Shown: positions 1-12,346, numbered from the stretch's first letter. The stretch is DNA of 31,506 nt from a virus (IMGVR_UViG_3300042483_001017:1-31506), one strand, 5' to 3'. Notes: generated by a model from the letters alone, not told the origin. Numbers and translations are program-made.

Positions 1-429
1 AACCTACCCAGTCTACCTATACTCAAAAAAAGATTATTATAGAAGCCAACACTACAGCCAGCCCTCCAGGCCAAACCCAAGCCAGTCTTATCCATCTTCT
101 TTTCTGATAAGCCAGTATACCAGATCTCTATCAAGCCAGGACCCGGACCGGGGGCTACCACGGCCAACCGCGGCCCTACCCGGGACATGGGCTCCCCGAG
201 CCGGGCCCCGGCCCTGCCGGGACTAGGGAGTAGACCCCTCGGCCACGCCCAATGGGTACCTACTGTGCGGACCTGGGGACTACGGAGTACGGCGAGCCCC
301 CACTCCGGCCCGGGCCTGCAGCTGCTAGCCCAGCCAGGGGCCACCGACTCGGGAAGCATAGGGACACCGCGGGACACCGGGCCCAGGGTTGTCCCAAGAG
401 TCCACGGACCCGGCCGGATAAATAACCTA
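1..429. other. GC-rich spacer before the recombinase gene
   Basis: I cannot assign a gene here. Bases 1-114 could hold the tail of a plus-strand gene from outside the window: one frame stays open and ends in TGA-TAA at 112-117, and another stays open to about 229. Neither can be recognised. From about 140 the sequence becomes very GC-rich with short palindromes and a tandem GGGACACCG-type repeat near 360-380. It contains one ACTAGGGAGT copy (222-231) and ends in an ATAAATAA promoter. Similar GC-rich, palindrome-rich spacers precede other late promoters near 1,550, 14,350 and 15,420. Confidence 0.4.
418..425 (+). promoter_or_regulatory. Late promoter box ATAAATAA
   Basis: GATAAATAACC ends four bases before the ATG at 430. 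It matches the T4 late promoter TATAAATA, and the spacing implies a leaderless or nearly leaderless transcript. Confidence 0.6.
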
Positions 430-1077
430 ATGAATACTACTGACCATACTGAAGACCCTCGCGAGACCCGGACCTTTCCGACCGGCGAGCTTGTGTACAA
501 GAAGGAGGCTGCAAAGTTCTTGGGAGTTTCCTTGAAGACCGTGGACCGCTATGTCTCGGACGGCAGGCTGCAGAACTGGAAGAACAGGATAAACGGCCGG
601 ACCTACTATGACAAACAGGACCTCTTGAAGTTACTAGGGAGTAGACTGCCCCAGACTCGAGAGGTATGGGTCTATGCTCGGGCGGCTGGTCTCGCGGATA
701 ATAATCAGGCAGGTACTGGGGCCAAGGCCAGGCTGGCGGCCCAGACCGAGCGGGTCCTCAAGTACTGCGCGGCAGCCGGGGTCCGGGTGGACCGGGTCGT
801 GGAGGAGATTGGAAAGGCCGGCTCGCTAGCCGGTAGGGGCGGGCTGGACAAGATCATGGACGCTGTGCTCCGCAAGCAGGTCAGCATGGTTATAGTCGAG
901 ACCCCTGACCGGATAGCCCGCTTTGCCGGTGCCGAGATCATAGAGAGATTCCTGACCTGGCACGGTGTCGAGCTGCATGTTGTTAGTCAGCACCTGGTTA
1001 CTGAAGAGATGAGGGAAGAGTTAAAGTCGGATCTTACGGACATCATCCTGGAGTCCCGCCGCTTGATTGGGGACTAG
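430..1077 (+). CDS. IS607-type serine recombinase-like protein with altered catalytic serine
   Basis: The protein has 215 residues. Residues about 20-70 form a MerR/excisionase-type HTH (KEAAKFLGVSLKTVDRY), and residues about 77-200 form a resolvase-like domain. This is the order seen in IS607 TnpA. The DRIARF motif and the arginine of YAR are kept. The usual YARVSS reads YARAAG, so the residue aligned with the nucleophilic serine is alanine. By family knowledge strand cleavage should then fail, so I infer a DNA-binding or regulatory role, unless a nearby residue substitutes. No TnpB, insertion-sequence ends or partner gene is visible. I chose the ATG at 430 because a late promoter box sits just before it; the open frame reaching back to 187 is GC-rich spacer. 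The gene contains one ACTAGGGAGT copy at 633-642 and its stop overlaps that of the convergent peptidase gene. Confidence 0.8.
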   Translation: MNTTDHTEDPRETRTFPTGELVYKKEAAKFLGVSLKTVDRYVSDGRLQNWKNRINGRTYYDKQDLLKLLGSRLPQTREVWVYARAAGLADNNQAGTGAKARLAAQTERVLKYCAAAGVRVDRVVEEIGKAGSLAGRGGLDKIMDAVLRKQVSMVIVETPDRIARFAGAEIIERFLTWHGVELHVVSQHLVTEEMREELKSDLTDIILESRRLIGD

Positions 1078-1529
1078 ACCGAATATGGAACCATTGGCTC
1101 TCCGGTAATGTCGCCGCCAGTGCCACCGTCAAAGGGCAGCTCAGCGCCTACTGGGGTCTGAGGCTCCTCCTCGTCCAACACGTAAATATGGTCATGGCGG
1201 CGGCCCCATTCGCGTAAGAGCACAGCTGCTTTAGAGTTAGCCTCGTTCTCGATCTCGCTACCGTCGGCCCCGTCCAGGGCTTTACCCTCTTCGCGCTGAC
1301 GCCAGTGCACAAGCTCATGAGCCAGGGTCCGGTACCAGTCAGCTGGAATCCGATCACCCCTTAACACCCAAATGTGGTTGTCCTTGGGACTATAGTAACC
1401 CATTGCCCTGTGGTCTTGGGCCTTTTGATGGTCATCCCCTACCCTAATGTTGGGACTGGTGGTTATCCCTAACTCTGCAATACAGAAACGGATGAAGTCT
1501 AAATCCTTTTGCGCTAGTGTCTTTGTCAT
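1074..1529 (-). CDS. Zinc metallopeptidase-like protein (HELVH)
   Basis: The protein has 151 residues with a zincin motif H71-E-L-V-H75 and a downstream acidic cluster (GSEIENEANSKA, about 90-101) that can supply the third zinc ligand. Similar small HELVH...ENEAN proteins occur in many large phages; their substrates are not settled, with virion or prohead processing and host-protein cleavage both possible. There is no signal peptide, so it probably acts in the cytoplasm or virion. A late box ATAAATAA lies six bases before the ATG, so expression is probably late. Its 3' end overlaps the stop of the convergent recombinase gene by four bases. Confidence 0.8.
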   Translation of the reverse strand: MTKTLAQKDLDFIRFCIAELGITTSPNIRVGDDHQKAQDHRAMGYYSPKDNHIWVLRGDRIPADWYRTLAHELVHWRQREEGKALDGADGSEIENEANSKAAVLLREWGRRHDHIYVLDEEEPQTPVGAELPFDGGTGGDITGEPMVPYSV

Positions 1530-1535
1530 ATAGGG

Positions 1536-1543
1536 TTATTTAT
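1536..1543 (-). promoter_or_regulatory. Late promoter box ATAAATAA
   Basis: On the minus strand AATAAATAACCC lies six bases before the ATG at 1529, so the transcript would have almost no leader. Confidence 0.6.
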
Positions 1544-1570
1544 TCTGGGCGGATGAGTGTACTTGTGACC

Positions 1571-1590
1571 CGAATCCCCATGGCCTGGGG
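1571..1590. repeat. GC-rich palindromic element, copy 1
   Basis: CCCCATGGCCTGGGG is an inverted repeat (CCCCA/TGGGG). The same 15-mer, with matching GAA(A)T on its left, recurs at 14358-14372. Both copies lie in GC-rich spacers upstream of ATAAATAA boxes. The region 1545-1620 holds more short GC palindromes and no gene. Confidence 0.55.
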
Positions 1591-1730
1591 GCTAGACCCC
1601 GGAGCTCACCGGGGGAGGCACGGACATTTGGTGCACTATCCACCGGCCTGCTAAACGGCGAATGGACCCCTTTTAAGAGTCCATCAGCTACAGTAGTCTT
1701 ATCCTGGCCAGAAAGGTTTTGGGCACAAGA

Positions 1731-1755
1731 AAGGGGTCCCTCGTGAGGACCCCTT
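1731..1755 (-). terminator. Rho-independent terminator-like hairpin
   Basis: A nine-base stem AAGGGGTCC/GGACCCCTT with a seven-base loop lies just past the stop of the DUF932 gene. On the minus strand it is followed by TTTCTT, so it probably ends the leftward transcript. Confidence 0.75.
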
Positions 1756-1792
1756 CCGGTTTATTATAGGTTCTGTTTATGTTTAGGGTTGC

Positions 1793-2911
1793 CTATATTG
1801 TAGCTAGACCTGCATGCTCTAGGTCCCAGCTCTTAGCGAATAGGTTACCGCCGGCTACCTTGAAACCTTTATGGTTCTTCAAGTTGAAGACCGTATCGTG
1901 AGAGCCGATCCATGTCAACTCGTTAACGACATCCCATACCGTAGCATCTGTCTTGATGAACTTCTTTTGGGCATCGGTCAACTGTAGCGGATTGAAACCA
2001 TTACGATAGATACGTTTGGTGGTTGCATCGAACTCTGGAAAGAATTGAGCCTCGGCGGTTCGGGCCAATTGGAACTTAAGGTCCATATCGGTCTCTTGGA
2101 TTGCACCGGTTACTGAGTACAGGGCTCTCTCCATTTCAGCATAGCTTGCCTTGGTGGTCATGGCTCTCTCCAATCTGGCCTGAAAGGTTTTAGGTACAAA
2201 ACCGTTCTTGGCCCAACCTTGCATCTGCTCTAGCAATTCACGGAAGGCGTCCTGACCCTGACCGAATTGGAACGCGGTGTCCATGTTACGAGCGACTGCA
2301 CCGTTGGCGCATGCTAAACGCCAGAAGAAGTCTTCAACTCGGCTCACGGTCTGGCCGTTTACTAGGGAGATCCCAAAACGAAACACCTCGTCCTTACCGA
2401 TCTTTTCATAACCGACCTGGCTGCCGTGTATCATGTTGATCGCCAATCCACCTGGACCGCCGGTGTCAATTGACTCCACATGCATGTCTGGGATTTCGTT
2501 TAGGATGGTCTCTGCTGTAGCGAACAGCGTATCGTTAGATAACCTGTTGTACTTGTCAGCCTTTGCGATATTGGTTACCTGATGGTTCGCAGAGTCGCCG
2601 ATTAAGAGGAACTCCTTGTCTCCATCACGGGTTTCTGAATATGACTTCACTGCCTGTAGGAGCTTGGTCTCAATCTCCTTGTCGGAGTTCTTATTCATCT
2701 TCGTGATTAGGCCGGCGTTGATGTTTACCATCTGGCCCAACCGATTGAAAAACTTGCTCGATACTGGAACTCTTGAGCCCTCGATCTCGATGTGGTTATG
2801 CTTGATGGAGTCGTCGTCCAAGTGGATGTCGGATAACTTTACTCTCTTTACTAAGGGGTCGTTGCCGCTTAGGTCTGCTTTGATCTGATTGAATTCTGAT
2901 TGGCTTACCAT
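1793..2911 (-). CDS. DUF932-family phage protein
   Basis: The protein has 372 residues. The stretch from about 190 (RFGISLVNGQTVSRVEDFFW, then RLACANGAV) has the conserved Cys-Asn-Gly feature of DUF932 proteins, known from phages and plasmids and of unknown biochemical function; some are suspected of DNA-related roles. The gene ends in a terminator hairpin and lies downstream of the RecA-like ATPase gene in the same direction, so the two may share a replication or recombination programme. Upstream sequence has an AATTTAGTATATTAA element and TATAAATC just before the ATG. A near copy of the ACTAGGGAGT motif (last base changed) sits inside at 2361-2370. Confidence 0.75.
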   Translation of the reverse strand: MVSQSEFNQIKADLSGNDPLVKRVKLSDIHLDDDSIKHNHIEIEGSRVPVSSKFFNRLGQMVNINAGLITKMNKNSDKEIETKLLQAVKSYSETRDGDKEFLLIGDSANHQVTNIAKADKYNRLSNDTLFATAETILNEIPDMHVESIDTGGPGGLAINMIHGSQVGYEKIGKDEVFRFGISLVNGQTVSRVEDFFWRLACANGAVARNMDTAFQFGQGQDAFRELLEQMQGWAKNGFVPKTFQARLERAMTTKASYAEMERALYSVTGAIQETDMDLKFQLARTAEAQFFPEFDATTKRIYRNGFNPLQLTDAQKKFIKTDATVWDVVNELTWIGSHDTVFNLKNHKGFKVAGGNLFAKSWDLEHAGLATI

Positions 2912-2935
2912 GATTTATATTTTATTTTTTATAAG

Positions 2936-2951: not shown

Positions 2952-2969
2952 GTGTGCTGAAGTTTCCGA

Positions 2970-4100
2970 CTAGTCGGCTGCAGTTTCAGCGGGTTCTGCA
3001 TCAGTTTGGGGTCTCTTAACGCTTAGGAACAGCGAGTTGAACTGGCCTTCTAGGTGTTGGCGGCGGTCTGACTCTTGCTCGGCCAACTCGCTAACCACGG
3101 TCTCCTGTCTCCATGAGGCCGCGTCCCAACGTACCTCACCTTGGACTAGGGAGTAATACATGCGCTTGCCGACTAGGCTACCGCCTCGGCGGTTCTTCGA
3201 GAACTCTACGAACCTGCGACCCGCATCGTCAAACTTGATCTCCATCATTGAGGTTGTAGCGTGCTTGAGGTAGGTTGAGCCGACGTACTCACCGCCCTTC
3301 GTCATGTGTTGGATCGCGAAGATTGCCTTGCCCTTCTTGTCGGCGGCTTCGATAATCAGGTTGGTTAACCATGTCTCGGCCTTGGTAGACTTCCAGCCCA
3401 GCACGTCCTTTAACTTGACGATGATGTCTTGGTGAGAGTCAATTAGGATTACGTCATAGTCGCCGTTGATTGCCTTCTCTAAGGTCTTATCGAAACGACC
3501 CATTAGGTAATCCATAACAAGTAGGGTTGGGATGGTCTCGATGATCGGCATCTTTCTGTAATAGAAGAATAGATCGTTACGGGTCATTTCGCTTGAGATG
3601 TACAAGATCTTGGCGGTTGGGTCCTGTAACTTAATCTTGGCAAGCATGTCTAAGGTTACGGTTGACTTACCTACACCTGACTCTCCGATTACTATATTAG
3701 CCGTGCCCGAGAAAATACCGCCTTCCTCGTCATGATCCGACATTAACTGATCGAACACTGAGCCGGTCTTGAACTTGCGGAAGTTAGGAAACTCCATCGA
3801 GCCAATCTCGAAGATCTGAGGTTCATCGCTGATTTCTACTACGGAGTCAGCCTGTACGCCAGCCGTGGCTCTAGCAATCGTGCTTTGGCCTGGGCCTGGG
3901 ACTAGGGAGTCTCCCGTTTCGAAGCGCAGCTTCTTGATTACCCCATTGAAGAGACCGTACGAGATGCCCGAGGCGTCTGCTGACTGAGTCATGAATTGGG
4001 TGTACAATTGTTGGACGGTTAGTTGCGGCACGCGACCACCGTGTTGAGCTTCAAAGAAGTCTCTTACTGCTAATTCTTTTTTGCCGATGCGTTCTTGCAT
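2970..4100 (-). CDS. RecA/RadA-fold ATPase
   Basis: The protein has 376 residues. Residues 1-110 form a variable N-terminal part. Residues about 130-300 form a RecA-type core with Walker A GESGVGKST (139-147) and Walker B DVILIDS (about 216-222); IFAIQHMTKGG is a likely motif-3-like segment. The acidic C-terminus (about 345-376) recalls RecA-type proteins. It could be a recombinase, a RadA/Sms-like branch-migration helicase or a DnaB-like helicase; I cannot decide, and no zinc finger or Lon-like domain typical of RadA is visible. Two exact ACTAGGGAGT copies (3145-3154 and 3901-3910) lie inside the gene, both encoding Ser-Leu-Val on the minus strand. Confidence 0.82.
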   Translation of the reverse strand: MQERIGKKELAVRDFFEAQHGGRVPQLTVQQLYTQFMTQSADASGISYGLFNGVIKKLRFETGDSLVPGPGQSTIARATAGVQADSVVEISDEPQIFEIGSMEFPNFRKFKTGSVFDQLMSDHDEEGGIFSGTANIVIGESGVGKSTVTLDMLAKIKLQDPTAKILYISSEMTRNDLFFYYRKMPIIETIPTLLVMDYLMGRFDKTLEKAINGDYDVILIDSHQDIIVKLKDVLGWKSTKAETWLTNLIIEAADKKGKAIFAIQHMTKGGEYVGSTYLKHATTSMMEIKFDDAGRRFVEFSKNRRGGSLVGKRMYYSLVQGEVRWDAASWRQETVVSELAEQESDRRQHLEGQFNSLFLSVKRPQTDAEPAETAAD

Positions 4101-4338: not shown

Positions 4339-4350
4339 GATGAGTGGGGT

Positions 4351-4608: not shown

Positions 4609-4639
4609 AATCTATTATAGTTTAGTAATTAATTGATAT

Positions 4640-4782
4640 GCAAATATAAGCCAAACCTTTGAGACCAAAAAATCTTTTTAGACTTTTTTTAGAAGAAGTT
4701 ATTAACAATCCATTGTTAACAACTGCCTAGGTCTGGTGCAGGTCGGAGTATACCTCCCGCTTCCCTGTTCCGAACCGTCCCA
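4640..4782. repeat. Direct repeat copy 1 (promoter plus small-RNA cassette)
   Basis: This stretch closely matches 5695-5836. The first 67 bases are identical, followed by a short variable patch, then about 47 bases with one mismatch, then divergence up to a shared ACCGTCCC. The two copies flank the 265-residue gene at 4869-5666, so recombination between them would delete that gene. Confidence 0.8.
4641..4648 (-). promoter_or_regulatory. Bacteroidota-type -7 box TATATTTG
   Basis: On the minus strand this lies upstream of the WYL_2-type gene. It is preceded by the phage-wide conserved GGTCTCAAAGGTTTGGCT and A/T tracts. Confidence 0.6.
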
Positions 4783-4795
4783 TTATCTTTTATTG
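4698..4795 (-). ncRNA. Candidate small RNA, copy 1
   Basis: A TATATTTG promoter (4802-4809) reads leftward into about 95 bases with no conserved protein. The transcript would carry GGAG-GTATA-CTCC, a possible hairpin with a five-base loop, the conserved ACCTGCACCAGACCTAGGCA, and a 3' hairpin of eleven pairs, one of them G-T (4698-4723). An 18-codon frame begins at 4783, but the second copy has lost its ATG and carries an indel, so conservation looks structural rather than coding. Function is unknown; a regulatory RNA fits the promoter and compact size. Confidence 0.5.
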
Positions 4796-4801
4796 ATAGA
4801 G

Positions 4802-4809
4802 CAAATATA
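4802..4809 (-). promoter_or_regulatory. Bacteroidota-type -7 box TATATTTG (small RNA 1)
   Basis: Same box and upstream GGTCTCAAAGGTTTGGCT as at 4641. No protein gene follows within 150 bases, so it points to a noncoding transcript. Confidence 0.6.
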
Positions 4810-4868
4810 AGCCAAACCTTTGAGACCGAAAAATTTATTATCACTTTTTTTCGAAGAAGTTATTAACA

Positions 4869-5666
4869 TTAGGTTGTTAATAACTTTACTCTTTGTATTA
4901 GCGTTTGTTTTTCTCCATTGTATTCAGCATGCTTGATTGTGCACTTTACTTTTAGGTATTCTGAATCATTTAGGTTTGGCGGAGTTCCACCTTTGTATTT
5001 GTAAACCTGCCCTTCCCTATTTTGATATGTAACAATTGAACAATATCCAAATTGGGTTTCAAATGAAAACTGGTCTATTTGAGTCAATTCTAATTCAACC
5101 TTATCGCCATTCTGATGTAGGAACGTTGTCTGAGATTTTCTTAGCTCCTCCGCTTTTTTAGCTTCAAGCAATTTAACCTCTGCACAAGTTGCGTACTTTC
5201 TAGCAGCTACACAATAAATAGGGTTTACTGAACGACTGATGTTTGAATCAACTGTTTCTAACCAATCATATCTAACAAGTTCCCCTAATTCAATTAAGCG
5301 GCGTCTTGCGAATGCTCTTCTTGCACCTGCGAATTGGTCATTGTAACATCGAGCCAATTGCCATACATCATTACACTCTAATATTTCAGTTCCTTTATAA
5401 CGTCCATAGCTGAATTGAGTTTTAGAGAATTTAATCTCATCGGCTCTCTCCCACGAAGAATTACGACCATACAATTCAAGGTTTGGCTCCAAGTTAGGAT
5501 ACAAGGCATTCACTTTATCTAGATCCTTGCTTATGTTCTTTAGGTAAACGTATCTATGCTTGTATCCACCGAAATGGTGTTTTCCGTTACAATCGGTAAA
5601 ATATTGTTCTTCTTTTGAGTAATCCCAAAGAGTATAAAATTGAGTGGCAAATCCGATAGCAATCAT
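4869..5666 (-). CDS. Hypothetical protein with a possible nucleic-acid-binding C-terminus
   Basis: The protein has 265 residues and no confident family. The middle segment (FSYGRYKGTEILECNDVWQL) is followed by a basic helix rich in Arg (GARRAFARRRL, about 125). The C-terminal 70 residues contain KVKCTIKHAEYNGEKQTLIQ, a pattern seen at the end of many phage and plasmid proteins of unknown role (a strand-rich segment ending in K-H-x-E-Y-N-G-x-x-Q-T). The gene has its own TATATTTG promoter 30 bases upstream. A ten-base-pair hairpin (GTTATTAACA/TGTTAATAAC) lies at its stop codon. It is flanked by the two copies of the promoter/small-RNA cassette, so it could be a removable cassette. Confidence 0.6.
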   Translation of the reverse strand: MIAIGFATQFYTLWDYSKEEQYFTDCNGKHHFGGYKHRYVYLKNISKDLDKVNALYPNLEPNLELYGRNSSWERADEIKFSKTQFSYGRYKGTEILECNDVWQLARCYNDQFAGARRAFARRRLIELGELVRYDWLETVDSNISRSVNPIYCVAARKYATCAEVKLLEAKKAEELRKSQTTFLHQNGDKVELELTQIDQFSFETQFGYCSIVTYQNREGQVYKYKGGTPPNLNDSEYLKVKCTIKHAEYNGEKQTLIQRVKLLTT

Positions 5667-5694
5667 AATTTTCTTTTTAAGTGTTTAAGATAGA

Positions 5695-5836
5695 GCAAAT
5701 ATAAGCCAAACCTTTGAGACCAAAAAATCTTTTTAGACTTTTTTTAGAAGAAGTTATTAACATTCGGTTGTTAACAACTGCCTAGGTCTGGTGCAGGTCG
5801 GAGTCTACCTCCCGCTCCTGGTTTGGACCGTCCCGT
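5695..5836. repeat. Direct repeat copy 2 (promoter plus small-RNA cassette)
   Basis: This is the partner of 4640-4782, 1,055 bases away in the same orientation. Differences are confined to the loop of the 3' hairpin and the 5' portion of the RNA. Confidence 0.8.
5696..5703 (-). promoter_or_regulatory. Bacteroidota-type -7 box TATATTTG
   Basis: Lies about 30 bases before the ATG of the 265-residue gene, with the shared upstream GGTCTCAAAGGTTTGGCT. Confidence 0.6.
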
Positions 5837-5850
5837 CTGTATCTGTTTGA
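5753..5850 (-). ncRNA. Candidate small RNA, copy 2
   Basis: This is the second copy of the small RNA described at 4698-4795. The GGAG/CTCC hairpin is kept with loop GTAGA, the ACCTGCACCAGACCTAGGCA block is identical, and the 3' hairpin is kept as GTTGTTAACA/TGTTAATAAC with a changed loop. The 5' part differs, including a one-base indel. Its promoter box is at 5856-5863. Confidence 0.5.
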
Positions 5851-5855
5851 CAAGG

Positions 5856-5863
5856 CAAATATA
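5856..5863 (-). promoter_or_regulatory. Bacteroidota-type -7 box TATATTTG (small RNA 2)
   Basis: Preceded on the minus strand by ACTGTCAAAACTATTTTG, the second upstream variant (TGTCAA type) used in this region. No protein gene follows directly. Confidence 0.6.
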
Positions 5864-5906
5864 CAAAATAGTTTTGACAGTAAAAAATTTATTTTAAACT
5901 TTTTTC

Positions 5907-5936
5907 AAAAAAAAAGCTGCCCATTTCTGAGCAGCT
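5907..5936 (-). terminator. Rho-independent terminator
   Basis: Stem AGCTGC/GCAGCT with a ten-base loop followed on the minus strand by nine T residues, 36 bases past the stop of the gene at 5972-6187. Confidence 0.85.
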
Positions 5937-5971
5937 GTCGCCTGTCGCCAATCTCGATTTCTCGAAATATC

Positions 5972-6187
5972 TTAATGTTCAGGTATCTGAACCTCTTCTT
6001 CTCCGATCTTGACGGTCTGTCCGATTAGATCCTTGCTGGTTGCTGCCTTTGCATGACCTCTCGCATCGTGATAATCCAGATCTATTTCTTCTTGTGGATC
6101 TGAAAGTAGTCTTACCATTTCGTGCGGGTCCTTGACACAGGTTTCCTTGCCGTCTGTGTAGAAGTATAGTCTTACAATTTCATTCAT
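5972..6187 (-). CDS. Small hypothetical protein
   Basis: The protein has 71 residues (MNEIVRLYFYTDGKETCVKD...), acidic, with a strand-rich N-terminus. It is not recognised. It lies 43 bases downstream of the 128-residue gene in the same direction, without its own obvious TATATTTG box, and ends at a strong terminator. The gene at 6231 is therefore probably its upstream operon partner. Confidence 0.6.
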   Translation of the reverse strand: MNEIVRLYFYTDGKETCVKDPHEMVRLLSDPQEEIDLDYHDARGHAKAATSKDLIGQTVKIGEEEVQIPEH

Positions 6188-6222
6188 ATATACAGATGTT
6201 TAGATTATATTTAACACCAGAA

Positions 6223-6244
6223 ATAACCGCCTATTGGCGGTTAT
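6223..6244 (-). terminator. Hairpin at gene end
   Basis: A nine-base stem ATAACCGCC/GGCGGTTAT with loop TATT overlaps the last codons and stop of the gene at 6231-6617. On the minus strand only ATTTC follows, so it may be a weak terminator or an mRNA 3' stabiliser. Confidence 0.5.
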
Positions 6245-6617
6245 CTAGGATACGTCTTTGGTTAGGGGTTAGGGACTCAATTCCGTTCTCGTTGATGAGG
6301 TCTAATATATCATCAATTGTCAATTCACGGTGGTCTGTCGAGATTTCAGGTTCCTCACCGACGATTTGTGCAATTACCACCATTAACTCTTCAGGAAGAT
6401 TGACATCGGCCTCATCAGCTCGCATCAGTATGAAGTAGACGCCGGTTTCCTTGACATCCGCCGCGACCTCTTCTTTCGTGGACTCGGTGTTAAAGACTGA
6501 CATGATTGCACCGGGAATTGGACAGGCGAACGCGCCACCGACGATGTGTGGTTTTAAAGCGGTTGAAACGGCTGGGCTCGGTTGATTGCCGAAGCGGACT
6601 AAGATTAATTTCTGCAT
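6231..6617 (-). CDS. Hypothetical protein
   Basis: The protein has 128 residues. It starts with a strand-like MQKLILVRFGNQPSP and a small hydrophobic GGAFACPIPGAIM segment, and the C-terminal third is acidic and helical (ELTIDDILDLINENGIESL). No family is recognised. A TATATTTG box lies about 32 bases before the ATG, so it heads its own early transcript. Confidence 0.6.
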   Translation of the reverse strand: MQKLILVRFGNQPSPAVSTALKPHIVGGAFACPIPGAIMSVFNTESTKEEVAADVKETGVYFILMRADEADVNLPEELMVVIAQIVGEEPEISTDHRELTIDDILDLINENGIESLTPNQRRILDNRQ

Positions 6618-6648
6618 GATTTAAAAATTTAGGTGTTAATAGATAAAG

Positions 6649-6656
6649 CAAATATA
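6649..6656 (-). promoter_or_regulatory. Bacteroidota-type -7 box TATATTTG
   Basis: Upstream of the gene starting at 6617, with TGTCAAGTTTTTGT just upstream on the minus strand. Confidence 0.6.
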
Positions 6657-6684
6657 CAACAAAAACTTGACACTAAAAAATAGT

Positions 6685-7125
6685 TTATGAATTATTTTCT
6701 AAATCGGTTAAGATTTTTACGAAGGCTTTGTCCGCCCAAGTTCTAGCGCCGACTGCAGTGTACTGAGTTTGGCTATAAAGATTGGTGTTACTCCAGTTCT
6801 GGTTGATATCTCCGACTTCCATGTCCATGAAAAGGCGTTCGTCCATTAGTTTAATCTTATTACCTGCTCGAGCGAATACTGCTAACCATGTGTTGCTACC
6901 TTCTGCTTTAAACTCGATGGTCTGTAAAGCTCCCTTCTTGAAACCTCTGAATACGTCGATCGCAGAGTTCCATTGCTTGCGGCCCCAATTTGCTCGGATT
7001 CCAAGGTCTTCAACGACGGTTAAGAACCCGGCTTGGACTTTAACTATCGCGCGGTATTCGCCGGCTTGGCCATTGATAAAATCAACCTGATTGATTCTTT
7101 CTAAATTAATGATTTGCTGTGTCAT
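6685..7125 (-). CDS. Hypothetical protein
   Basis: The protein has 146 residues and is soluble, with alternating strand-like segments (EYRAIVKVQAGFLTVVEDLG, TWLAVFARAGNKIKLMDERL) that suggest a beta-rich fold. No family is recognised. It has its own TATATTTG promoter about 21 bases before the ATG and is separated from the neighbouring genes by A/T-rich promoter spacers, so it is probably transcribed alone in the early phase. Confidence 0.6.
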   Translation of the reverse strand: MTQQIINLERINQVDFINGQAGEYRAIVKVQAGFLTVVEDLGIRANWGRKQWNSAIDVFRGFKKGALQTIEFKAEGSNTWLAVFARAGNKIKLMDERLFMDMEVGDINQNWSNTNLYSQTQYTAVGARTWADKAFVKILTDLENNS

Positions 7126-7145
7126 GTGTATTTAATTTGATAGAG

Positions 7146-7153
7146 CAAATATA
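7146..7153 (-). promoter_or_regulatory. Bacteroidota-type -7 box TATATTTG
   Basis: Upstream of the gene starting at 7125, with ACTGTCAAGTTTTTGTGT directly upstream on the minus strand; a clear example of the phage consensus. Confidence 0.65.
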
Positions 7154-7216
7154 ACACAAAAACTTGACAGTAAAAAATTTATTTTAAACTTTTTTCAAAA
7201 AAATTTTAGGAGGACC

Positions 7217-7480
7217 TTACGCGTGGTCTTTGGATTTAGGTAATTGATCCGCTAACTTCTTCAGGTCAGCGCACTTCTCGAATTCTTCGTTCTGTTCGAA
7301 ATGCTTGATCATGGTCCATATTGCTTGAGACTTCTCCTCGACTGGGGTTGAATCATTGATTACATCCTTGAACTCGCCGGTCAAGGCTTCGTATAAGCGA
7401 TCCATGAAAGCAGAGTAGTCGGTCTGTCTAAGATAGACAAGGTCTAGCAGGATTTTAGAGTATCGGTTTAGATCTGACAT
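7217..7480 (-). CDS. Small helical hypothetical protein (EKCxDL family)
   Basis: The protein has 87 residues and is predicted all-helical. The C-terminal part WTMIKHFEQNEEFEKCADLK resembles the end of the 65-residue protein at 22484-22681 (LTIIKYLESKEEYEKCQDLW), so the two look like paralogues of a small helical module. The pattern also recalls UvrB/UvrC-type UVR motifs, but the match is weak. An ATAAATAA box lies six bases upstream, unlike the surrounding early genes, and a TTTAGTATAATATA element lies further upstream. Confidence 0.6.
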   Translation of the reverse strand: MSDLNRYSKILLDLVYLRQTDYSAFMDRLYEALTGEFKDVINDSTPVEEKSQAIWTMIKHFEQNEEFEKCADLKKLADQLPKSKDHA

Positions 7481-7486
7481 GTTTGA

Positions 7487-7494
7487 TTATTTAT
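7487..7494 (-). promoter_or_regulatory. Late promoter box ATAAATAA
   Basis: On the minus strand ATAAATAATC lies six bases before the ATG at 7480; this is a late-type box inside the early region. Confidence 0.5.
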
Positions 7495-7511
7495 TTTGAC
7501 CCAATTGGGCT

Positions 7512-7529
7512 CTATTATATTATACTAAA
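7512..7529 (-). promoter_or_regulatory. Candidate promoter TTTAGTATAATATAATAG
   Basis: The same TTTAGTATAATATA string precedes the CAP gene at 18648, and a close variant precedes the DUF932 gene. Confidence 0.35.
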
Positions 7530-7531
7530 AT

Positions 7532-7558
7532 GGGACCGAAGGATTAACCCTCGGTCCC
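7532..7558 (-). terminator. Terminator-like hairpin
   Basis: Stem GGGACCGA/TCGGTCCC past the stop of the gene at 7584-7841. Minus-strand downstream sequence is ATTTTAG. The T-rich side is stronger on the plus strand, where no gene ends, so it is probably used leftward with modest efficiency. Confidence 0.65.
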
Positions 7559-7583
7559 TTTTGTTTTTTCTTGATAGATTCTA

Positions 7584-7841
7584 TTAATCCGCTATGCAAG
7601 CTGAACAGCGAGCCTTGAATTCAATTAGATTCTTCTTGAAGTATTCTTCTTGCCCGGCCTTCTTGCCCTGTATGGCTTCCCATAGCGGCTCGGATTCCGT
7701 GTGGTAATTGACATCTTCAAAAGAATTGAATAACCTTTGCAAGTCTGACAATGGGGTTTCTTCCGTAACCTGTGCTCCGGTCTCGAGCATTCCATCGTAA
7801 TCAAAATTGTCTGACCATTTGTTTCCTAATTTGTAGCTCAT
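7584..7841 (-). CDS. Small hypothetical protein
   Basis: The protein has 85 residues (MSYKLGNKWSDNFDYDGMLE...), acidic and mostly helical. A C-terminal Cys-Ser-Ala-Cys pair (ARCSACIAD) is too short for a zinc ribbon by itself. No family is recognised. A variant -7 box (TATATTTA at 7880-7887) precedes it and a hairpin follows it, so it looks like a single-gene transcript. Confidence 0.6.
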   Translation of the reverse strand: MSYKLGNKWSDNFDYDGMLETGAQVTEETPLSDLQRLFNSFEDVNYHTESEPLWEAIQGKKAGQEEYFKKNLIEFKARCSACIAD

Positions 7842-7879
7842 GATTTTAATTTTTAAGGGTTGATTAATAATTGATGTTG

Positions 7880-7887
7880 TAAATATA
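7880..7887 (-). promoter_or_regulatory. Variant -7 box TATATTTA
   Basis: Minus-strand TGTTATATTTACAACATC upstream of the gene starting at 7841; the final G of the box is changed. Confidence 0.4.
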
Positions 7888-7928
7888 ACACTTTTTTCTT
7901 AAACGGGAAAAAGTATTTTTAGATTTAG

Positions 7929-8225
7929 TTAAATGTTTCGGAGAAAGTTTCCTCGAGCGTCCCTAACCTCGTCTGGTCCGTACTCTTTGATAACGATAAT
8001 CTGGTCTCCTGAGAATCTGGCATCAGCTGCTCCGCCGGTAATATCTTGTAGGTAATTACCTCTTACATCCCAAAGCTGGGCGGTTCCTGATTCCGTCACC
8101 AGCACAATACGGCTCTCGTCTGGAGAGAGCTGGGCTGAGACCGCTCGGCCAGTAATTGTTCTGATTAGGTTTCCGGTATTCTCGAATAGATTGACCGTGT
8201 TGTCTATTACTCTTACAATACTCAT
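7929..8225 (-). CDS. Small WD40-like beta-propeller-blade protein
   Basis: The protein has 98 residues with three repeats spaced about 35-40 residues apart: VNLFENTGNLIRTITGRAV, AQLWDVRGNYLQDITGGAA and DEVRDARGNFLRNI. Each resembles the outer strand and turn of a WD40 blade, interspersed with SPDESRIVLV-type strands. Two to three blades cannot close a propeller alone, so the protein probably oligomerises or is a fragmentary propeller. Its ATG overlaps the stop of the preceding gene (ATGA), and that gene in turn overlaps the sigma factor gene, so it is translationally linked to the sigma factor. A role as a partner of that factor is only a guess. Confidence 0.7.
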   Translation of the reverse strand: MSIVRVIDNTVNLFENTGNLIRTITGRAVSAQLSPDESRIVLVTESGTAQLWDVRGNYLQDITGGAADARFSGDQIIVIKEYGPDEVRDARGNFLRNI

Positions 8226-8437
8226 GACGTTTGAATTTTAGAGTTATCGACGCAGGCTCTGAATTCTTCTTCGTCCAATACGTCTGAATCTTCAGTCACC
8301 AGTTTCTTTAGGGTGGCCTGGCGAATCTCCCACTGGAGTCTTGATTTATCTATTGGCTCCATGAATGGGCTACCCTCAGAGTAGAGGATATCGACTGCCA
8401 TTTGGGCCATCGTGTTTGCGTGTTCTAGCGTATTCAT
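8222..8437 (-). CDS. Small hypothetical protein in the sigma-factor operon
   Basis: The protein has 71 residues, acidic and helical (MNTLEHANTMAQMAVDILYS...). It is not recognised. Start and stop overlap its neighbours by ATGA on both sides: the sigma factor upstream and the WD40-like gene downstream. This tight coupling suggests balanced production with the sigma factor; small acidic partners of sigma factors can be anti-sigma or coactivator proteins, but nothing in the sequence proves it. Confidence 0.65.
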   Translation of the reverse strand: MNTLEHANTMAQMAVDILYSEGSPFMEPIDKSRLQWEIRQATLKKLVTEDSDVLDEEEFRACVDNSKIQTS

Positions 8438-9153
8438 TTGCTTATCTCCTTTCTCATTTGTGCACGTGCGACCTTCAACGCGCGGTTAACTTCAGCTGGG
8501 GTCTTTCCAACTTGTTCTGCAATTTCTTTTGTAGAAAGTCCATCTCCCACGAGACCATAGAATAGTTGAACAATCTCTAATTCGGTTGGCCTTAACTTTG
8601 AAAGTAATCTGGTCAAGACTCGATTAGTTTCTTCCATCTCGAATGGATCAGCAAAATCGGTACGAAGCATTATATCGCCGATTGTATTGTCTCCATCCTC
8701 GCCAACGGGTTTATCGATCTGTACGTTTGAGAGATTGATTTCTTCTCCCTTCATTTTACGCTTGTAAATATCGTACTCTTGATTTACCGGAAGTCTAACG
8801 ATTCTGCCATGATCGCAAAGAGCAAGATTTAGGCGCTTGCGAATCCAGAACTGGGCGTAAGTAATAAACTTAACGTCCTTGGCTGACGTAAATTTTTGAG
8901 CGGCTTCAATTAGACCAGCATTTCCTTCTTGAATCAAGTCATCGATGGATAATCCCATACCAATAAACTTATTCGCAAGGGTTACGACGAACTTAAGGTT
9001 AGCCGTTACTAGAGAGTTGAGAGCGCGCTTGTCTCCTGCCTGGATTCTGTCCGCTAGTGCAAGCTCCTCTGCTTTGCTTAGCGGTTTGGCAACTGATTCA
9101 ATACTCTTGAAGTATTGCGGTAGGCCATCCGTTGTTTCAAATCTTTTTGACAT
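8434..9153 (-). CDS. RNA polymerase sigma-70 family factor
   Basis: The protein has 239 residues. Region 2 spans about 25-120 and includes LVTANLKFVVTLANKFIGMG, DDLIQEGNAGLIEAAQKF (about 71-88) and FITYAQFWIRKRLN (the -10 recognition and melting part). A shortened region 3 follows, and region 4 (about 190-239) has LRPTELEIVQLFYGL and an HTH KEIAEQVGKTPAEVNRAL. It resembles primary sigma factors more than ECF factors, but lacks region 1.1. The sigma factor would redirect host RNA polymerase. I infer it may read the ATAAATAA late boxes, as gp55 does in T4. It heads a three-gene operon with ATGA overlaps. Confidence 0.93.
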   Translation of the reverse strand: MSKRFETTDGLPQYFKSIESVAKPLSKAEELALADRIQAGDKRALNSLVTANLKFVVTLANKFIGMGLSIDDLIQEGNAGLIEAAQKFTSAKDVKFITYAQFWIRKRLNLALCDHGRIVRLPVNQEYDIYKRKMKGEEINLSNVQIDKPVGEDGDNTIGDIMLRTDFADPFEMEETNRVLTRLLSKLRPTELEIVQLFYGLVGDGLSTKEIAEQVGKTPAEVNRALKVARAQMRKEISK

Positions 9154-9173
9154 AATTATTATGTTTTAAATTG

Positions 9174-9545
9174 TTAAATTGTTACATCTCTAACTGCACG
9201 CACATAGTAAGTGGAGTACTTGTCGTTGAAGTACTGATTGCCATTGTAGAAGTCTTGAGCCCAGGCGAAGTAGCTACTGCCCTCACTAGAACTCCAATAG
9301 GAGCCAACGGCAAAATTGCCAACACTTTTTATATTTAACCACATTAGATTCAACTCTTCCTTTGTAGGAAGTCTCCAACCATCTCCCAAATCTTCACATA
9401 TTTTTTTCGCATCTTCCCAATTGTGCTTACCTAAGTCTTTAGGATACACTTCAAACTTTAGATGTTGTTCTAAGATTATTGGCTTAGATTGTTTTTCAAT
9501 AGGAGTTAAGCTGTACTCTACTCCATCAATTGTCATTGTTTTCAT
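9174..9545 (-). CDS. DUF1566/Lcl-C-like domain protein
   Basis: The protein has 123 residues. The segment GDGWRLPTKEELNLMW, then GSYWSSSEG, FAWAQDFYNGNQYF and YYVRAVRD at the C-terminus is the typical pattern of DUF1566/Lcl_C domains, a C-type-lectin-like fold found in surface and phage proteins. Here the domain stands alone without signal peptide. It may bind a surface ligand or be a fibre-associated piece. The gene is more AT-rich than its neighbours and adjoins another AT-rich gene, which hints at recent acquisition of the pair. Confidence 0.75.
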   Translation of the reverse strand: MKTMTIDGVEYSLTPIEKQSKPIILEQHLKFEVYPKDLGKHNWEDAKKICEDLGDGWRLPTKEELNLMWLNIKSVGNFAVGSYWSSSEGSSYFAWAQDFYNGNQYFNDKYSTYYVRAVRDVTI

Positions 9546-9546
9546 A

Positions 9547-9930
9547 TTATTTGTTTTTAACTATTTTTATTAGTCTATCTAAACAAGCTTGTTCTGCTTC
9601 TTCGTATGTGTTATGACCTTTAAACTCATTACTACCTTCAACTTCATCAACAAAAGGAATATAACTTGGGGTATTTCCAATAAAAGCCATCCAAGAAGAT
9701 GTACCATTTTGTATGAATACATTTAAATTATACTTCTCTCTAAACCATCTAAATGCTTGTGAGTATAGTGGTGCTGATGCCCATCTTGAATCATCATTTC
9801 CTGTTCTATTATTTGATAAGTCTTCTATTAGTTCTTGGTTGCTGACATTGTAATAACCAAAACAAGGTTCATCAAATCCTAATTCCTTTAAAGCTAATGC
9901 TTGTTCGTATGGGATAAATTCGCGGTTCAT
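9547..9930 (-). CDS. Conserved phage hypothetical protein
   Basis: The protein has 127 residues. The pattern YEQALALKELGFDEPCFGYY, then PLYSQAFRWFREKYNL and YEEAEQACLDRLIKIVKNK at the end is common in Bacteroidota phages and plasmids; the function is unknown. No membrane or signal segments are seen. It lies one base upstream of the DUF1566 gene and is probably cotranscribed with it from a variant -7 box (TATATTTA at 9959-9966). Confidence 0.7.
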   Translation of the reverse strand: MNREFIPYEQALALKELGFDEPCFGYYNVSNQELIEDLSNNRTGNDDSRWASAPLYSQAFRWFREKYNLNVFIQNGTSSWMAFIGNTPSYIPFVDEVEGSNEFKGHNTYEEAEQACLDRLIKIVKNK

Positions 9931-9958
9931 ATTTTTTATTGATTAATTATTTAGATTG

Positions 9959-9966
9959 TAAATATA
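9959..9966 (-). promoter_or_regulatory. Variant -7 box TATATTTA
   Basis: Minus-strand TATATTTACAATC upstream of the gene starting at 9930, with ACTGTCAAAAATTTGTT just upstream, as in the full-consensus promoters. Confidence 0.5.
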
Positions 9967-10017
9967 AAACAAATTTTTGACAGTAAAAAACTTTTTTTAA
10001 ACTTTTTTTAAATTTTT

Positions 10018-10107
10018 ACTAGGGAGTCCGGTCCCGGTTGGGCGCAGACTGTCCGGACCGGCGGACCACCCGTACTAGGGAGTGGTCAGCTGGCGCGGCC
10101 GGGCCGA
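10018..10107. repeat. Paired ACTAGGGAGT element A
   Basis: Two exact ACTAGGGAGT copies (10018-10027 and 10074-10083) in the same orientation are exactly 56 bases apart. Between them are CCGGTCCC and an imperfect hairpin (CGGTTGG...CCACCCG enclosing GTCCG/CGGAC). After the second copy comes a GC-rich tail ending CGGCCGGGCCGATTA, which abuts the stop codon of the minus-strand gene. Element B at 12253-12346 has the same plan with a different hairpin sequence. The GC-rich element sits in an otherwise A/T-rich spacer, as an insertion would. Confidence 0.8.
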
Positions 10108-10500
10108 TTAGCCGAAGACTATTTCTTCGAAGAACACGGTCTGTAAGATAACGTCTGCCGTCTCGGCATCGTCTTGCTCTTTTATCATGTCCATTAGAAA
10201 GCGAACTGGAGCCTGTTGAACCCGGTCGTGGACATCAGCTAACGAGATTGAGCGAGTGTATTCGCCGTCGCATTCAACGTCTACCATCGTAAGCTCTCCG
10301 CCTTCTCGAAGAATCTGCATCAAGACGTCTTCGTAACAAACCGCCGCCGTTGCCGCGTCGCGTAGGTTACGACCCGCTGAATCGTAATCTTCTTTTTTAA
10401 ACTCGACCTCTAGGCCATAGCCGCCCATGTAGCCTAAGCCGTTGCAAAGAGCACTGTGGAACATCTGTTCTGATTCGTGATTTTCTAATTTAATCTGCAT
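10108..10500 (-). CDS. Conserved phage hypothetical protein
   Basis: The protein has 130 residues and is acidic. The pattern AVCYEDVLMQILREGGELTM, then SISLADVHDRVQ and DDAETADVILQTVFFEEIVF is common to a small family in Bacteroidota phages and plasmids with unknown function. No catalytic motif is evident. A variant -7 box (TATGTTTG, 10532-10539) precedes it. Its stop codon directly adjoins the GC-rich paired-repeat element A. Confidence 0.7.
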   Translation of the reverse strand: MQIKLENHESEQMFHSALCNGLGYMGGYGLEVEFKKEDYDSAGRNLRDAATAAVCYEDVLMQILREGGELTMVDVECDGEYTRSISLADVHDRVQQAPVRFLMDMIKEQDDAETADVILQTVFFEEIVFG

Positions 10501-10531
10501 AAAATTGGGTTTTAAGTGTTAATTGATAGAG

Positions 10532-10539
10532 CAAACATA
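10532..10539 (-). promoter_or_regulatory. -7 box TATGTTTG
   Basis: Fits TAnnTTTG. AGTGTCAAGTATCTGTTT lies just upstream on the minus strand, and the ATG is about 30 bases downstream at 10500. Confidence 0.55.
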
Positions 10540-10603
10540 AAACAGATACTTGACACTAAAAAATTTATTTTCACTTTTTTTAAAAAAGTTATTAACCGTG
10601 TTA

Positions 10604-10843
10604 TTAACATCTGAACCATTGTCCACAGTTGCGGCATTCTGAGTAATCGTCTATTTTAAATGCTCTGATTATCCATGACCAGCGGTCAGAATTTCTAGGT
10701 TCCTGTGGGTCCGCATAGACCTCTCTTGCCTCGCAATACGGGCAACAAAGACCTTGTGGATTGGGTTGCTCGCTTCCGGTCCTGTTGATTATTAAGCTCT
10801 TAATTTCAAGGCTTTTGATTTCTGATAAATTTGATATTTCCAT
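10604..10843 (-). CDS. Zinc-ribbon protein
   Basis: The protein has 79 residues. Two CxxC knuckles (CPYC at about 34-37 and CRNCGQWFRC at the end) are about 35 residues apart and form a probable zinc ribbon. Such small phage proteins can bind nucleic acid or be transcription-factor fragments; the target is unknown. The gene ends in tandem stop codons (TAA TAA) that lie within a TTAATAAC repeat. It has its own TATATTTG promoter just before the ATG. Confidence 0.68.
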   Translation of the reverse strand: MEISNLSEIKSLEIKSLIINRTGSEQPNPQGLCCPYCEAREVYADPQEPRNSDRWSWIIRAFKIDDYSECRNCGQWFRC

Positions 10844-10863
10844 GTCTATATTAGTTTAGTAAG

Positions 10864-10871
10864 CAAATATA
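10864..10871 (-). promoter_or_regulatory. Bacteroidota-type -7 box TATATTTG
   Basis: Upstream of the zinc-ribbon gene starting at 10843, with ACTGTCAAGAATTATTGT upstream on the minus strand. Confidence 0.6.
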
Positions 10872-10899
10872 ACAATAATTCTTGACAGTAAAAAAAATT

Positions 10900-11145
10900 T
10901 TATTGAATTATTTTTCCAATCTGTCTGGCTGCGGTCTCGCCCGCTAAGAGTAATTCGCAGATTACCTTTGCTCCGGAAAGAGTTTCTTCTTCCTCGGATT
11001 CGGGTACCCATTTCTCCGTCTCGCCGAACAGAGTGTATATTCCGCTTACCCTACCCGCACGGTCCAAGCGAATCCATAGATCTCCAAGCTCGCAATGGCC
11101 GTGGCAATGTCTGTCCTGTACTGGGTCCCAACTTATTTTTTCCAT
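10900..11145 (-). CDS. Small hypothetical protein
   Basis: The protein has 81 residues. A His/Cys cluster near the N-terminus (DRHCHGHCELGDLWIRL) might bind a metal, and the rest looks strand-rich then helical (LSGAKVICELLLAGETAA). It is not recognised. It lies just upstream of the zinc-ribbon gene, has no clear TATATTTG box, and may be cotranscribed with the small membrane protein gene before it. Confidence 0.6.
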   Translation of the reverse strand: MEKISWDPVQDRHCHGHCELGDLWIRLDRAGRVSGIYTLFGETEKWVPESEEEETLSGAKVICELLLAGETAARQIGKIIQ

Positions 11146-11152
11146 GGTATAT

Positions 11153-11290
11153 CTATTGATTTCTTTTTCTTGACCAGAATACTACTGTAATGAACATTAT
11201 GAATACTATTGCAGTAACTTTAATAATATTAAATACTATACCTAATAAACCAACAAAGGAGACCTTGCGAGTCTCCCATTGCTGAATCAA
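11153..11290 (-). CDS. Possible 45-residue single-span membrane protein
   Basis: From a TTG at 11290 the frame encodes a short polar start (MIQQWETRKV), a hydrophobic span of about 25 residues (GLLGIVFNIIKVTAIVFIMF and on) and a basic tail WSRKRNQ, which would place the C-terminus in the cytoplasm. An ATG at 11311, five bases after the structured RNA at 11317-11422, is in the same frame but separated by one TGA, so it may be a seven-codon leader with restart at TTG. The composition strongly suggests real coding despite the short length. The GGAGAC/GTCTCC hairpin at its 5' end could affect translation. Confidence 0.4.
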   Translation of the reverse strand: MIQQWETRKVSFVGLLGIVFNIIKVTAIVFIMFITVVFWSRKRNQ

Positions 11291-11316
11291 TCAACCAAAC
11301 CAATTTATCATTTTGC

Positions 11317-11422
11317 GGTGGAGTTCGGTGTTGCTCCGACGATTCTCTCAAGCGGGTTCTGACCTTTTACCCGTAGAATCCTTTACTCTAGTCAGTTGGT
11401 AACTCTTGTTACTTCCTCCACC
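11317..11422 (-). ncRNA. Candidate pseudoknotted structured RNA
   Basis: A perfect seven-base outer stem (GGTGGAG/CTCCACC) closes a multibranch fold. On the minus strand the inner stems are GTAAC-AAGA-GTTAC; GATTCT...AGAATC stacked on CGGGT...ACCCG; and TCGG-AGCAACA-CCGA. The loop of the CGGGT hairpin holds GTCAG, which can pair with the unpaired CTGAC at 11391-11395, making a pseudoknot. Loops are A-rich on the minus strand, which favours that strand. It sits between the gene at 11447 and a small membrane-protein frame whose upstream ATG begins five bases after the outer stem. I do not recognise it as a known riboswitch, ribozyme or tRNA. It could be a cis-regulatory leader or a processed small RNA. 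Confidence 0.55.
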
Positions 11423-11446
11423 AGTTGTAATCTTTTATCATTGTTA

Positions 11447-11704
11447 TTACCCAATACCAAGGTCTTTTAACATCTTCTTCACTTCTGCTTCTCCCTCTCT
11501 CGCACTGTGAATCCTGTTTAGTAGGTCTTCTAATTCTTCTTTACCGGCTTCGGAATCCAGGGCTCCGATACTGACGGTCAAGACCTTGCCAAGTAACAGG
11601 ATATCGGGCTGATTTCTAGAGATTCCTCCGCTGACCAGGCTGGCGGCTAGGCCGGTTAGGTCTCTAAGTATCTTGTCTCTTTCTTGGTTAGCAGTTGCAT
11701 TCAT
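11447..11704 (-). CDS. Small helical hypothetical protein
   Basis: The protein has 85 residues, predicted helical (ATANQERDKILRDLTGLAAS, ELEDLLNRIHSAREGEAEVK), acidic at the C-terminus and without motifs. No family is recognised. It lies 34 bases downstream of the 63-residue gene and is followed by the structured RNA candidate. A TATAATA sequence occurs before its ATG, but no TATATTTG box does. Confidence 0.6.
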   Translation of the reverse strand: MNATANQERDKILRDLTGLAASLVSGGISRNQPDILLLGKVLTVSIGALDSEAGKEELEDLLNRIHSAREGEAEVKKMLKDLGIG

Positions 11705-11738
11705 AAGTTTATTATACCCAATCCTCGAAGAGCCTGGA

Positions 11739-11930
11739 TTACTCGGTTATTCCAAGGCGGATTGCCTCCGCTCGCTTTAGCTCGCGGTGCACGTTTTGGA
11801 ATACCTCATTGAAGCCCGCTTTCTCCGCAGGTTTGTATGTGCTCATTACTCTGGGCTGGCCGACCGTAATGCTGTAGCTCTCGCCGATACCGGGTTTTCC
11901 GAATAAGATTCTGTGAATTAACTTCTTCAT
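11739..11930 (-). CDS. Small basic hypothetical protein
   Basis: The protein has 63 residues, with a basic amphipathic N-terminus (MKKLIHRILFGKPGIGESY) and a helical C-terminus rich in Arg/Glu. It is not recognised. A full TATATTTG box with the GGTCTCAACTGTTTGGCT upstream block lies about 32 bases before its ATG, so it probably heads an operon with the 85-residue gene. Confidence 0.58.
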   Translation of the reverse strand: MKKLIHRILFGKPGIGESYSITVGQPRVMSTYKPAEKAGFNEVFQNVHRELKRAEAIRLGITE

Positions 11931-11961
11931 GTCTTTTGAGTTTTAATTGTTTAAGATAAGG

Positions 11962-11969
11962 CAAATATA
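11962..11969 (-). promoter_or_regulatory. Bacteroidota-type -7 box TATATTTG
   Basis: Upstream of the gene starting at 11930, followed on the minus strand by CCTTATCTTAAAC, a downstream pattern shared with other copies. Confidence 0.6.
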
Positions 11970-11997
11970 AGCCAAACAGTTGAGACCTGAAAATCTT

Positions 11998-12192
11998 TTA
12001 TGATTTATTTTTAGATATGTTTAGTATTGATGAAATTGGTGTTCCACCACAATCAGAACACCAACAAACTTGAATAGTAACATTAACCTTTCCAAATTCT
12101 TTATCTTTATAGAAGTCATTACCACTTTCTATATTAGTTTCTATTAAATTACATACTACATTAGTACTTTTACATTTTTTACATTCAAACAT
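11998..12192 (-). CDS. Small zinc-ribbon protein
   Basis: The protein has 64 residues with CKKC near the start (4-7) and CWCSDCGG later (about 43-50), a four-cysteine zinc ribbon with a strand-rich insert. It could bind nucleic acid or serve as a subunit-type zinc finger. The gene is far more AT-rich than its neighbours, including the GC-rich element B beside it, so it was probably acquired separately. A TATATTTG box lies about 46 bases upstream of its ATG. Confidence 0.65.
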   Translation of the reverse strand: MFECKKCKSTNVVCNLIETNIESGNDFYKDKEFGKVNVTIQVCWCSDCGGTPISSILNISKNKS

Positions 12193-12237
12193 AGTTCATT
12201 TTTTTAATTGTAAAACAAAACTAATACATACTTATTA

Positions 12238-12245
12238 CAAATATA
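12238..12245 (-). promoter_or_regulatory. Bacteroidota-type -7 box TATATTTG
   Basis: Upstream of the zinc-ribbon gene starting at 12192. The repeat element B begins only eight bases further upstream, so element and promoter are adjacent. Confidence 0.5.
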
Positions 12246-12252
12246 CCCTTTT

Positions 12253-12346
12253 ACTAGGGAGTCCGGTCCCAGGTCCGCTCCGGCCGGCCAGAGAAGCCGG
12301 CCACCTGTACTAGGGAGTGGCTCCTCCGCCCGGCCGGGCAGGATTA
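12253..12346. repeat. Paired ACTAGGGAGT element B
   Basis: Exact ACTAGGGAGT copies at 12253-12262 and 12309-12318 are again 56 bases apart. Both elements share ACTAGGGAGTCCGGTCCC at the left and CGGCCGGGC plus GATTA at the right. The central hairpin differs from element A: CAGGT...ACCTG encloses a perfect GGCCGGC/GCCGGCC stem with loop CAGAGAA. The fixed spacing with a changed stem suggests selection on motif spacing and folding. Confidence 0.8.

Follow-up and report, generated by a model that had tools for sequence, protein, structure and literature searches.

Why does the 10-bp word ACTAGGGAGT recur on a single strand of the viral sequence IMGVR_UViG_3300042483_001017:1-31506, and what recognizes it there? 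We refer to this whole stretch of 31,506 bp as the window. The eight exact copies, all on the plus strand, and the lack of any reverse complement in the window agree with a preliminary description of this DNA, coordinates included (Table 1). That description also listed a plus-strand copy with one mismatch at 2361 (ACTAGGGAGA), but overlooked three others, at 279 and 3838 (both ACTACGGAGT) and at 9008 (ACTAGAGAGT). With up to one mismatch allowed, the window holds 12 matches, all on the plus strand, where 1.56 are expected and the maximum in 100 shuffles is 5; the exact word is the commonest 10-mer in the window. In the analysis that follows, we put at about even the chance that the word is the recognition site of a domesticated, catalytically dead IS607-type transposase (TnpA) that controls transcription of the gene block carrying the sites.

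The window is a complete IMG/VR record yet a fragment of a bigger genome, and genome-wide counts were therefore taken from relatives. Viral contigs were scanned for pairs of copies 30–60 bp apart, which gave 21 contigs, and a search with the TnpA-like protein gave 4; the two sets overlap, the contigs are mostly fragments, and simple scripts served to call open reading frames (ORFs). Near-duplicates are numerous among the records, which makes the independent counts lower than the record counts. Three contigs from the scan (L009, L016 and L022) appear to be unrelated tandem duplications and were rejected. In the related phages, the word occurs 8–12 times per record, on a single strand and within a single segment, with per-record strand counts of 10/0, 12/0, 0/10, 0/12 and so on; the sole mixed record is the 4.5-kb contig L027 (5/1). 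Specifically, all ten copies in G011 (271,290 bp) fall at 117,957–126,135, a span of 8.2 kb, with zero elsewhere, where chance would supply ~0.1 copies in the entire genome, and 12 of 12 copies in G013 (253 kb) fall at 173,699–184,736 (11 kb). In G011, G013 and G010, the sites are limited to one segment of 8–18 kb and are not genome-wide. G011, G003, G015 and G018 are near-identical records of 270–271 kb with equal site counts and mutually permuted coordinates, and the final 100 bases of G011 reappear at its start, so the absence of sites outside the segment is meaningful. A random spread, occurrence on both strands and loss in relatives, which the preliminary description would have counted against its proposal, were each looked for in the relatives, and none was found.

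The carriers are large uncultured phages of Bacteroidota type, and the phage of the window has Bacteroidota-type promoters (TATATTTG). When bacterial genomes were scanned, the only hit was a phage-like contig from a Bacteroidetes bin. The 254-kb contig L090 (CAIWBA010000291.1), binned as an uncultured Bacteroidetes bacterium, has the same tnpA, array and sites; it is probably a phage contig, and is consistent with a Bacteroidota host. The exact word appears in 39 papers; the ten of these that were listed deal with cell biology, eukaryotic chromatin or a tumour virus, and none with a phage.

Comparison of orthologues shows that the word is fixed at the nucleotide level by selection. Each of the 10 uvsX-like orthologues keeps the site TAC-TCC-CTA-GTN unchanged, the others having 62–97% protein identity to that of the window; among the other invariant columns of the gene, a single codon is used in none of 13 for Leu and none of 10 for Ser. 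A second site in the same gene lies in a linker, where the flanks vary and Ser-Leu-Val stays constant. Furthermore, the presence of a site in the gp71 and sigma genes coincides with altered amino acids, and the small-gene orthologues of G011 and G013 have Asp-Ser-Leu-Val in place of unrelated residues where the site is present. The codon test in the uvsX-like orthologues thus supports the earlier proposal that selection acts on DNA, as does a switch of word between clades.

The switch was found in a sister clade, reached by a scan with the uvsX-like alignment, in which UvsX is ~50–60% identical and TnpA mostly ~30% identical (50% in L109) to the window type. In this clade, ACTACGGAGT, the word carried by window sites 279 and 3838, stands in place of ACTAGGGAGT, with 6–15 copies in the larger records, all on one strand except for one inverted copy in G025. 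L109/G022, whose TnpA is of intermediate identity, carries seven new and two old words and keeps the 57-bp array. In the uvsX linker, Ser-Leu-Val becomes Ser-Val-Val, as the DNA word demands, between variable flanks. In both clades, tnpA has its internal site near +195 nt, counted from the start codon, but in different frames (Leu-Gly-Ser versus Thr-Thr-Glu). Individual sites turn over, while their count, orientation and block stay. A word changed in concert at so many places needs a recognizer acting in trans. The helix-turn-helix (HTH) of TnpA varies with the word (SLKT/TLRT versus SYNT/SYST), a suggestive covariation that points to TnpA as the binder, and neither word occurs close to the TnpA relatives whose Y-R-V-S motif is intact (L160–L162; phage records of H2 and H7). 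Because the site set follows the lineage of the dead TnpA, and because the HTH of this protein changes with the word, TnpA is the best candidate. We consider it probable that the neighbouring TnpA-like protein is the binder, a possibility that the preliminary description had raised for its recombinase-like protein.

The TnpA-like protein is composed of an N-terminal MerR-type HTH (HTH_17) and a C-terminal resolvase domain (Resolvase), both scoring over the cut-off. The top matches by profile and by predicted fold (mean predicted local distance difference test score 80) are IS607 catalytic-domain structures, and the predicted winged helix-turn-helix (wHTH) matches BldC and RacA. The position of the catalytic Ser in Y-x-R-x-S is occupied by Ala in all eight window-type homologues and by Ala, Gly, Asn or Pro in distant ones, whereas the Arg of this motif and the Args of D-R-x-x-R are retained. 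No match to TnpB (PF07282 or PF01385) was found in seven records, and no second resolvase was found. Active recombination, another early suggestion, is not supported by these results, the catalytic Ser being lost in every site-bearing phage; RNA guidance of the TnpB/TldR type was rejected on the same negative result for TnpB.

The sites are placed in a recurrent manner. One to five copies lie 5′ of the TnpA-like gene, usually forming, in the window-type clade, an array of sites 57–58 bp apart with unrelated spacers, and one copy lies within the gene; in the window, the upstream copies are site 222 and the variant at 279, and the internal copy is site 633, in line with the one inside and one upstream first described. 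The remaining sites occupy a block of genes transcribed toward tnpA, either as Ser-Leu-Val codons or between genes, where they often come right after stop codons and 5′ of the next promoter. The site-bearing leftward block ends at TnpA, and leftward genes past tnpA have no sites. In the window, three contexts can be distinguished: at or in the TnpA-like gene, within minus-strand genes as Ser-Leu/Val-Val codons (2361, 3145, 3838, 3901 and 9008), and in GC-rich intergenic elements. A spacing of 56–58 bp appears in non-homologous contexts, namely upstream of tnpA, inside and downstream of tnpA in G010 (57-bp pairs in each case), and in the intergenic pairs of the window. In G010 (L088:3691-8698 and beyond), inter-site gaps of 461–463 bp recur five times, an equality matched by 0 of 20,000 random placements. 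A genome-wide lattice of 57.7 bp was rejected, since it is seen only in parts of G010, and so was a fixed distance from site to promoter −7 element, which is often 42–45 or 52–53 bp, is inconstant, and is absent for coding sites.

We propose that a phage protein recognizes the 10-mer as an asymmetric site on DNA, and that this protein is most probably the adjacent TnpA, which keeps the MerR-type wHTH DNA-binding domain and the recombinase fold, minus the catalytic Ser. TnpA would bind the site or sites 5′ of its own gene, giving autoregulation, and the strand-locked sites across the block transcribed toward it. It would then bridge or polymerize between sites, as IS607 TnpA does on transposon ends, and the likely result would be repression or polar termination of transcription through the block. 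Transcriptional silencing or polar termination is our leading guess because strand-locked sites, many of them after stop codons, resemble by analogy the stoperators of mycobacteriophages, which work in one orientation only, an orientation that follows transcription (PMC9283540, PMC6550527). For an outcome of transcriptional control as such, we would put the chances at even or slightly below. Taken as a whole, a regional, polar, stoperator-like control or genome-organizing system, built from a dead IS607 transposase and with its site set rewritten in concert between two 10-mers, is a proposition we regard as evenly poised between true and false.

Several observations weigh against this proposal. 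The orientation of the sites is uniform with the leftward block, where nearly all genes point one way, tnpA being the exception, and orientation on the DNA is therefore inseparable from orientation relative to transcription. The sites borne by tnpA stand opposite relative to its own transcription. The uvsX-like, 372-aa and metallopeptidase genes co-occur with the sites too, and could encode the binder. Finally, L027 (L027:1-4471) has sites together with the metallopeptidase, 372-aa and uvsX-like genes, and at the tnpA position an unrelated 134-aa ORF (MASESKKRKLK...), which holds an internal site and has no Pfam match; sites are thus kept without tnpA at its usual place, in a contig that at 4.5 kb is too short to exclude tnpA elsewhere.

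The same dead transposase might instead gather or anchor this part of the genome through the array and the scattered sites, in a centromere-like or condensing role comparable to those of RacA and ParB. A direct-repeat array plus scattered sites in a single segment would fit such a role, as would a RacA-like predicted wHTH, the bridging of DNA by IS607 TnpA, and a 56–58 bp spacing that, within the window-type clade, is repeated in several settings unrelated to one another. We nevertheless consider it unlikely, since ParB and RacA sites are symmetric and a strict orientation would be unexpected, the sites track one transcriptional block, and four records gave no match to a ParA-type ATPase (PF13614). 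Recognition could also take place on RNA, with ACUCCCUAGU / ACUCCGUAGU in the mRNAs of the block being bound by an RNA-binding protein or nuclease, or pairing with complementary copies in the tnpA 5′ leader. Apart from those in tnpA and 5′ of it, almost all sites read as one and the same sense word on the dominant transcripts, the sites have no degenerate tail, and pairing partners would also switch in concert. However, the tnpA and upstream sites are opposite in sense in the tnpA transcript, sites lie 5′ of promoters and not at ribosome-binding sites, no Rfam family matches, the site set follows the dead TnpA lineage, and the regular 56–58 bp spacing with unrelated spacers suggests a protein–DNA geometry, leaving an RNA-level role quite unlikely.

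A replication origin, a packaging signal or a Chi/KOPS-like polar signal would account for the strict strand polarity and dense placement, and the block includes recombination and sigma genes. Such a signal is very unlikely here: a distribution over one segment is not the genome-wide one of Chi or KOPS, neither G011 nor G013 has a GC-skew extremum at the segment, and packaging, which had been put forward initially, is disfavoured because the large terminase gene (TerL) lies ~60 kb from the segment in these two largest genomes. The upstream direct-repeat array resembles IS607 ends, and the sites might accordingly be remains of an insertion, either motifs of transposon ends or places still targeted by transposition or recombination. 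We give this only a remote chance, given the loss of the catalytic Ser in every homologue of the group, the lack of TnpB and of a second recombinase, the unrelated spacers between sites, and the location of sites in conserved genes under codon-level selection. As for chance, codon usage or oligonucleotide bias, several copies do read TCC-CTA-GTN in genes that often use CTA, but the other Leu and Ser columns are not codon-invariant, CTAG is not over-represented, and the copies far exceed the chance expectation per 271 kb given above; this explanation, to which we assign next to no probability, is refuted by the codon test and by the sister clade, in which the entire set has switched.

Table 1. 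Sites and site-bearing features of the window (coordinates from its first base)
Feature	Position	Strand	Remarks
Site	222..231	+	exact; 5′ of TnpA-like gene
Site, variant ACTACGGAGT	279..288	+	57 bp past site 222; 5′ of TnpA-like gene; exact word of the sister clade
IS607 TnpA-like gene	430..1077	+	MerR-type wHTH and serine-recombinase domain; Ala in place of the catalytic Ser (YARAAG)
Site within TnpA-like gene	633..642	+	CTA GGG AGT = Leu-Gly-Ser
372-aa gene, function unassigned	1793..2911	−	conserved neighbour; holds one site
Site, variant ACTAGGGAGA, in 372-aa gene	2361..2370	+	TCC CTA GTA; same codons in 5/9 covering orthologues
UvsX/AAA_25-like gene	2970..4100	−	holds three sites
Site in uvsX-like gene	3145..3154	+	TAC TCC CTA GTC; 10-mer invariant in 10/10 orthologues
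Site, variant ACTACGGAGT, in uvsX-like gene	3838..3847	+	TCC GTA GTA
Site in uvsX-like gene, variable linker	3901..3910	+	TCC CTA GTC; kept in 8/9 covering orthologues
Sigma-70-like factor gene	8434..9153	−	
One-mismatch site ACTAGAGAGT in sigma gene	9008..9017	+	exact only in G011 and G006
72-bp GC-rich intergenic element	10014..10085	+	sites 10018 and 10074, 56 bp apart
Second 72-bp element	12249..12320	+	78% identical to the first; sites 12253 and 12309, 56 bp apart

The two 72-bp GC-rich elements sit in otherwise AT-rich intergenic DNA, are also present in G001 and G007, and may be dispersed copies of one element. On the minus strand at window positions 4631–13149, about a dozen promoter-like modules of the TATATTTG type make up a family of dispersed repeats that is independent of the 10-mer. 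A gene with a histone-deacetylase domain lies at 22620–23684, and its orthologue in G010 contains a site. Several genes at 14963–28899 begin with similar residues, F.DWL.E (as in KSYSDWLTESL and LKFNDWLLEN), which may be a shared tag for targeting. In L121:1-20336, another repeat with strand bias, GGAGGTTTGCTCCC, is present in ~12 copies, none reversed; the uvsX match of that phage is only 34%.

These results suggest that the phages co-opted a transposase to regulate or organize a gene block. It is rare for a transposase domesticated as a phage regulator to be documented together with its targets, whereas here the protein, its own upstream sites and 6–15 target sites can all be read from the sequence, and two clades with different words offer a ready specificity-swap test. 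Candidate regulatory DNA is fixed within coding sequence, so strongly that it dictates the codons and even the residues. If the proposal is true, polar stoperator-like organization extends past mycobacteriophages to large uncultured phages.

Among known systems, RacA of Bacillus shares the MerR-like wHTH and a similar predicted fold, and has clustered chromosomal sites; the phage sites differ in being asymmetric and one-way. BldC of Streptomyces likewise has a MerR-like wHTH with a similar predicted fold and binds 9-bp direct repeats head to tail and directionally, but it has only 68 residues, lacks a recombinase domain, and occupies contiguous degenerate repeats (PMC5859096). The stoperators of Cluster A phages (L5 gp71, TipsytheTRex repressor) resemble the phage sites in being many, near-invariant, asymmetric and of one orientation, which in the stoperators is tied to transcription, in often lying in short intergenic spaces with one 5′ of the regulator gene, and in using words that differ between phage groups (PMC9283540, PMC6550527). 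Their regulator is unrelated, with an HTH and a stoperator domain instead of a dead serine recombinase; the sites described here are in one block rather than most of the genome, many are coding or in close-set arrays, and a temperate lifestyle is not established for this phage group. TnpA of the IS607 family (IS1535, ISC1926) has the same domain order and likewise has direct repeats, short and asymmetric, close to the start of tnpA; its dimers bind cooperatively to 9-bp direct repeats, grow into filaments, and capture and bridge a second DNA (PMC6188088). Unlike these transposases, the phage protein has no catalytic Ser, no tnpB and no transposon ends, and its sites, besides being fixed in coding sequence, are scattered through phage genes over 8–25 kb.
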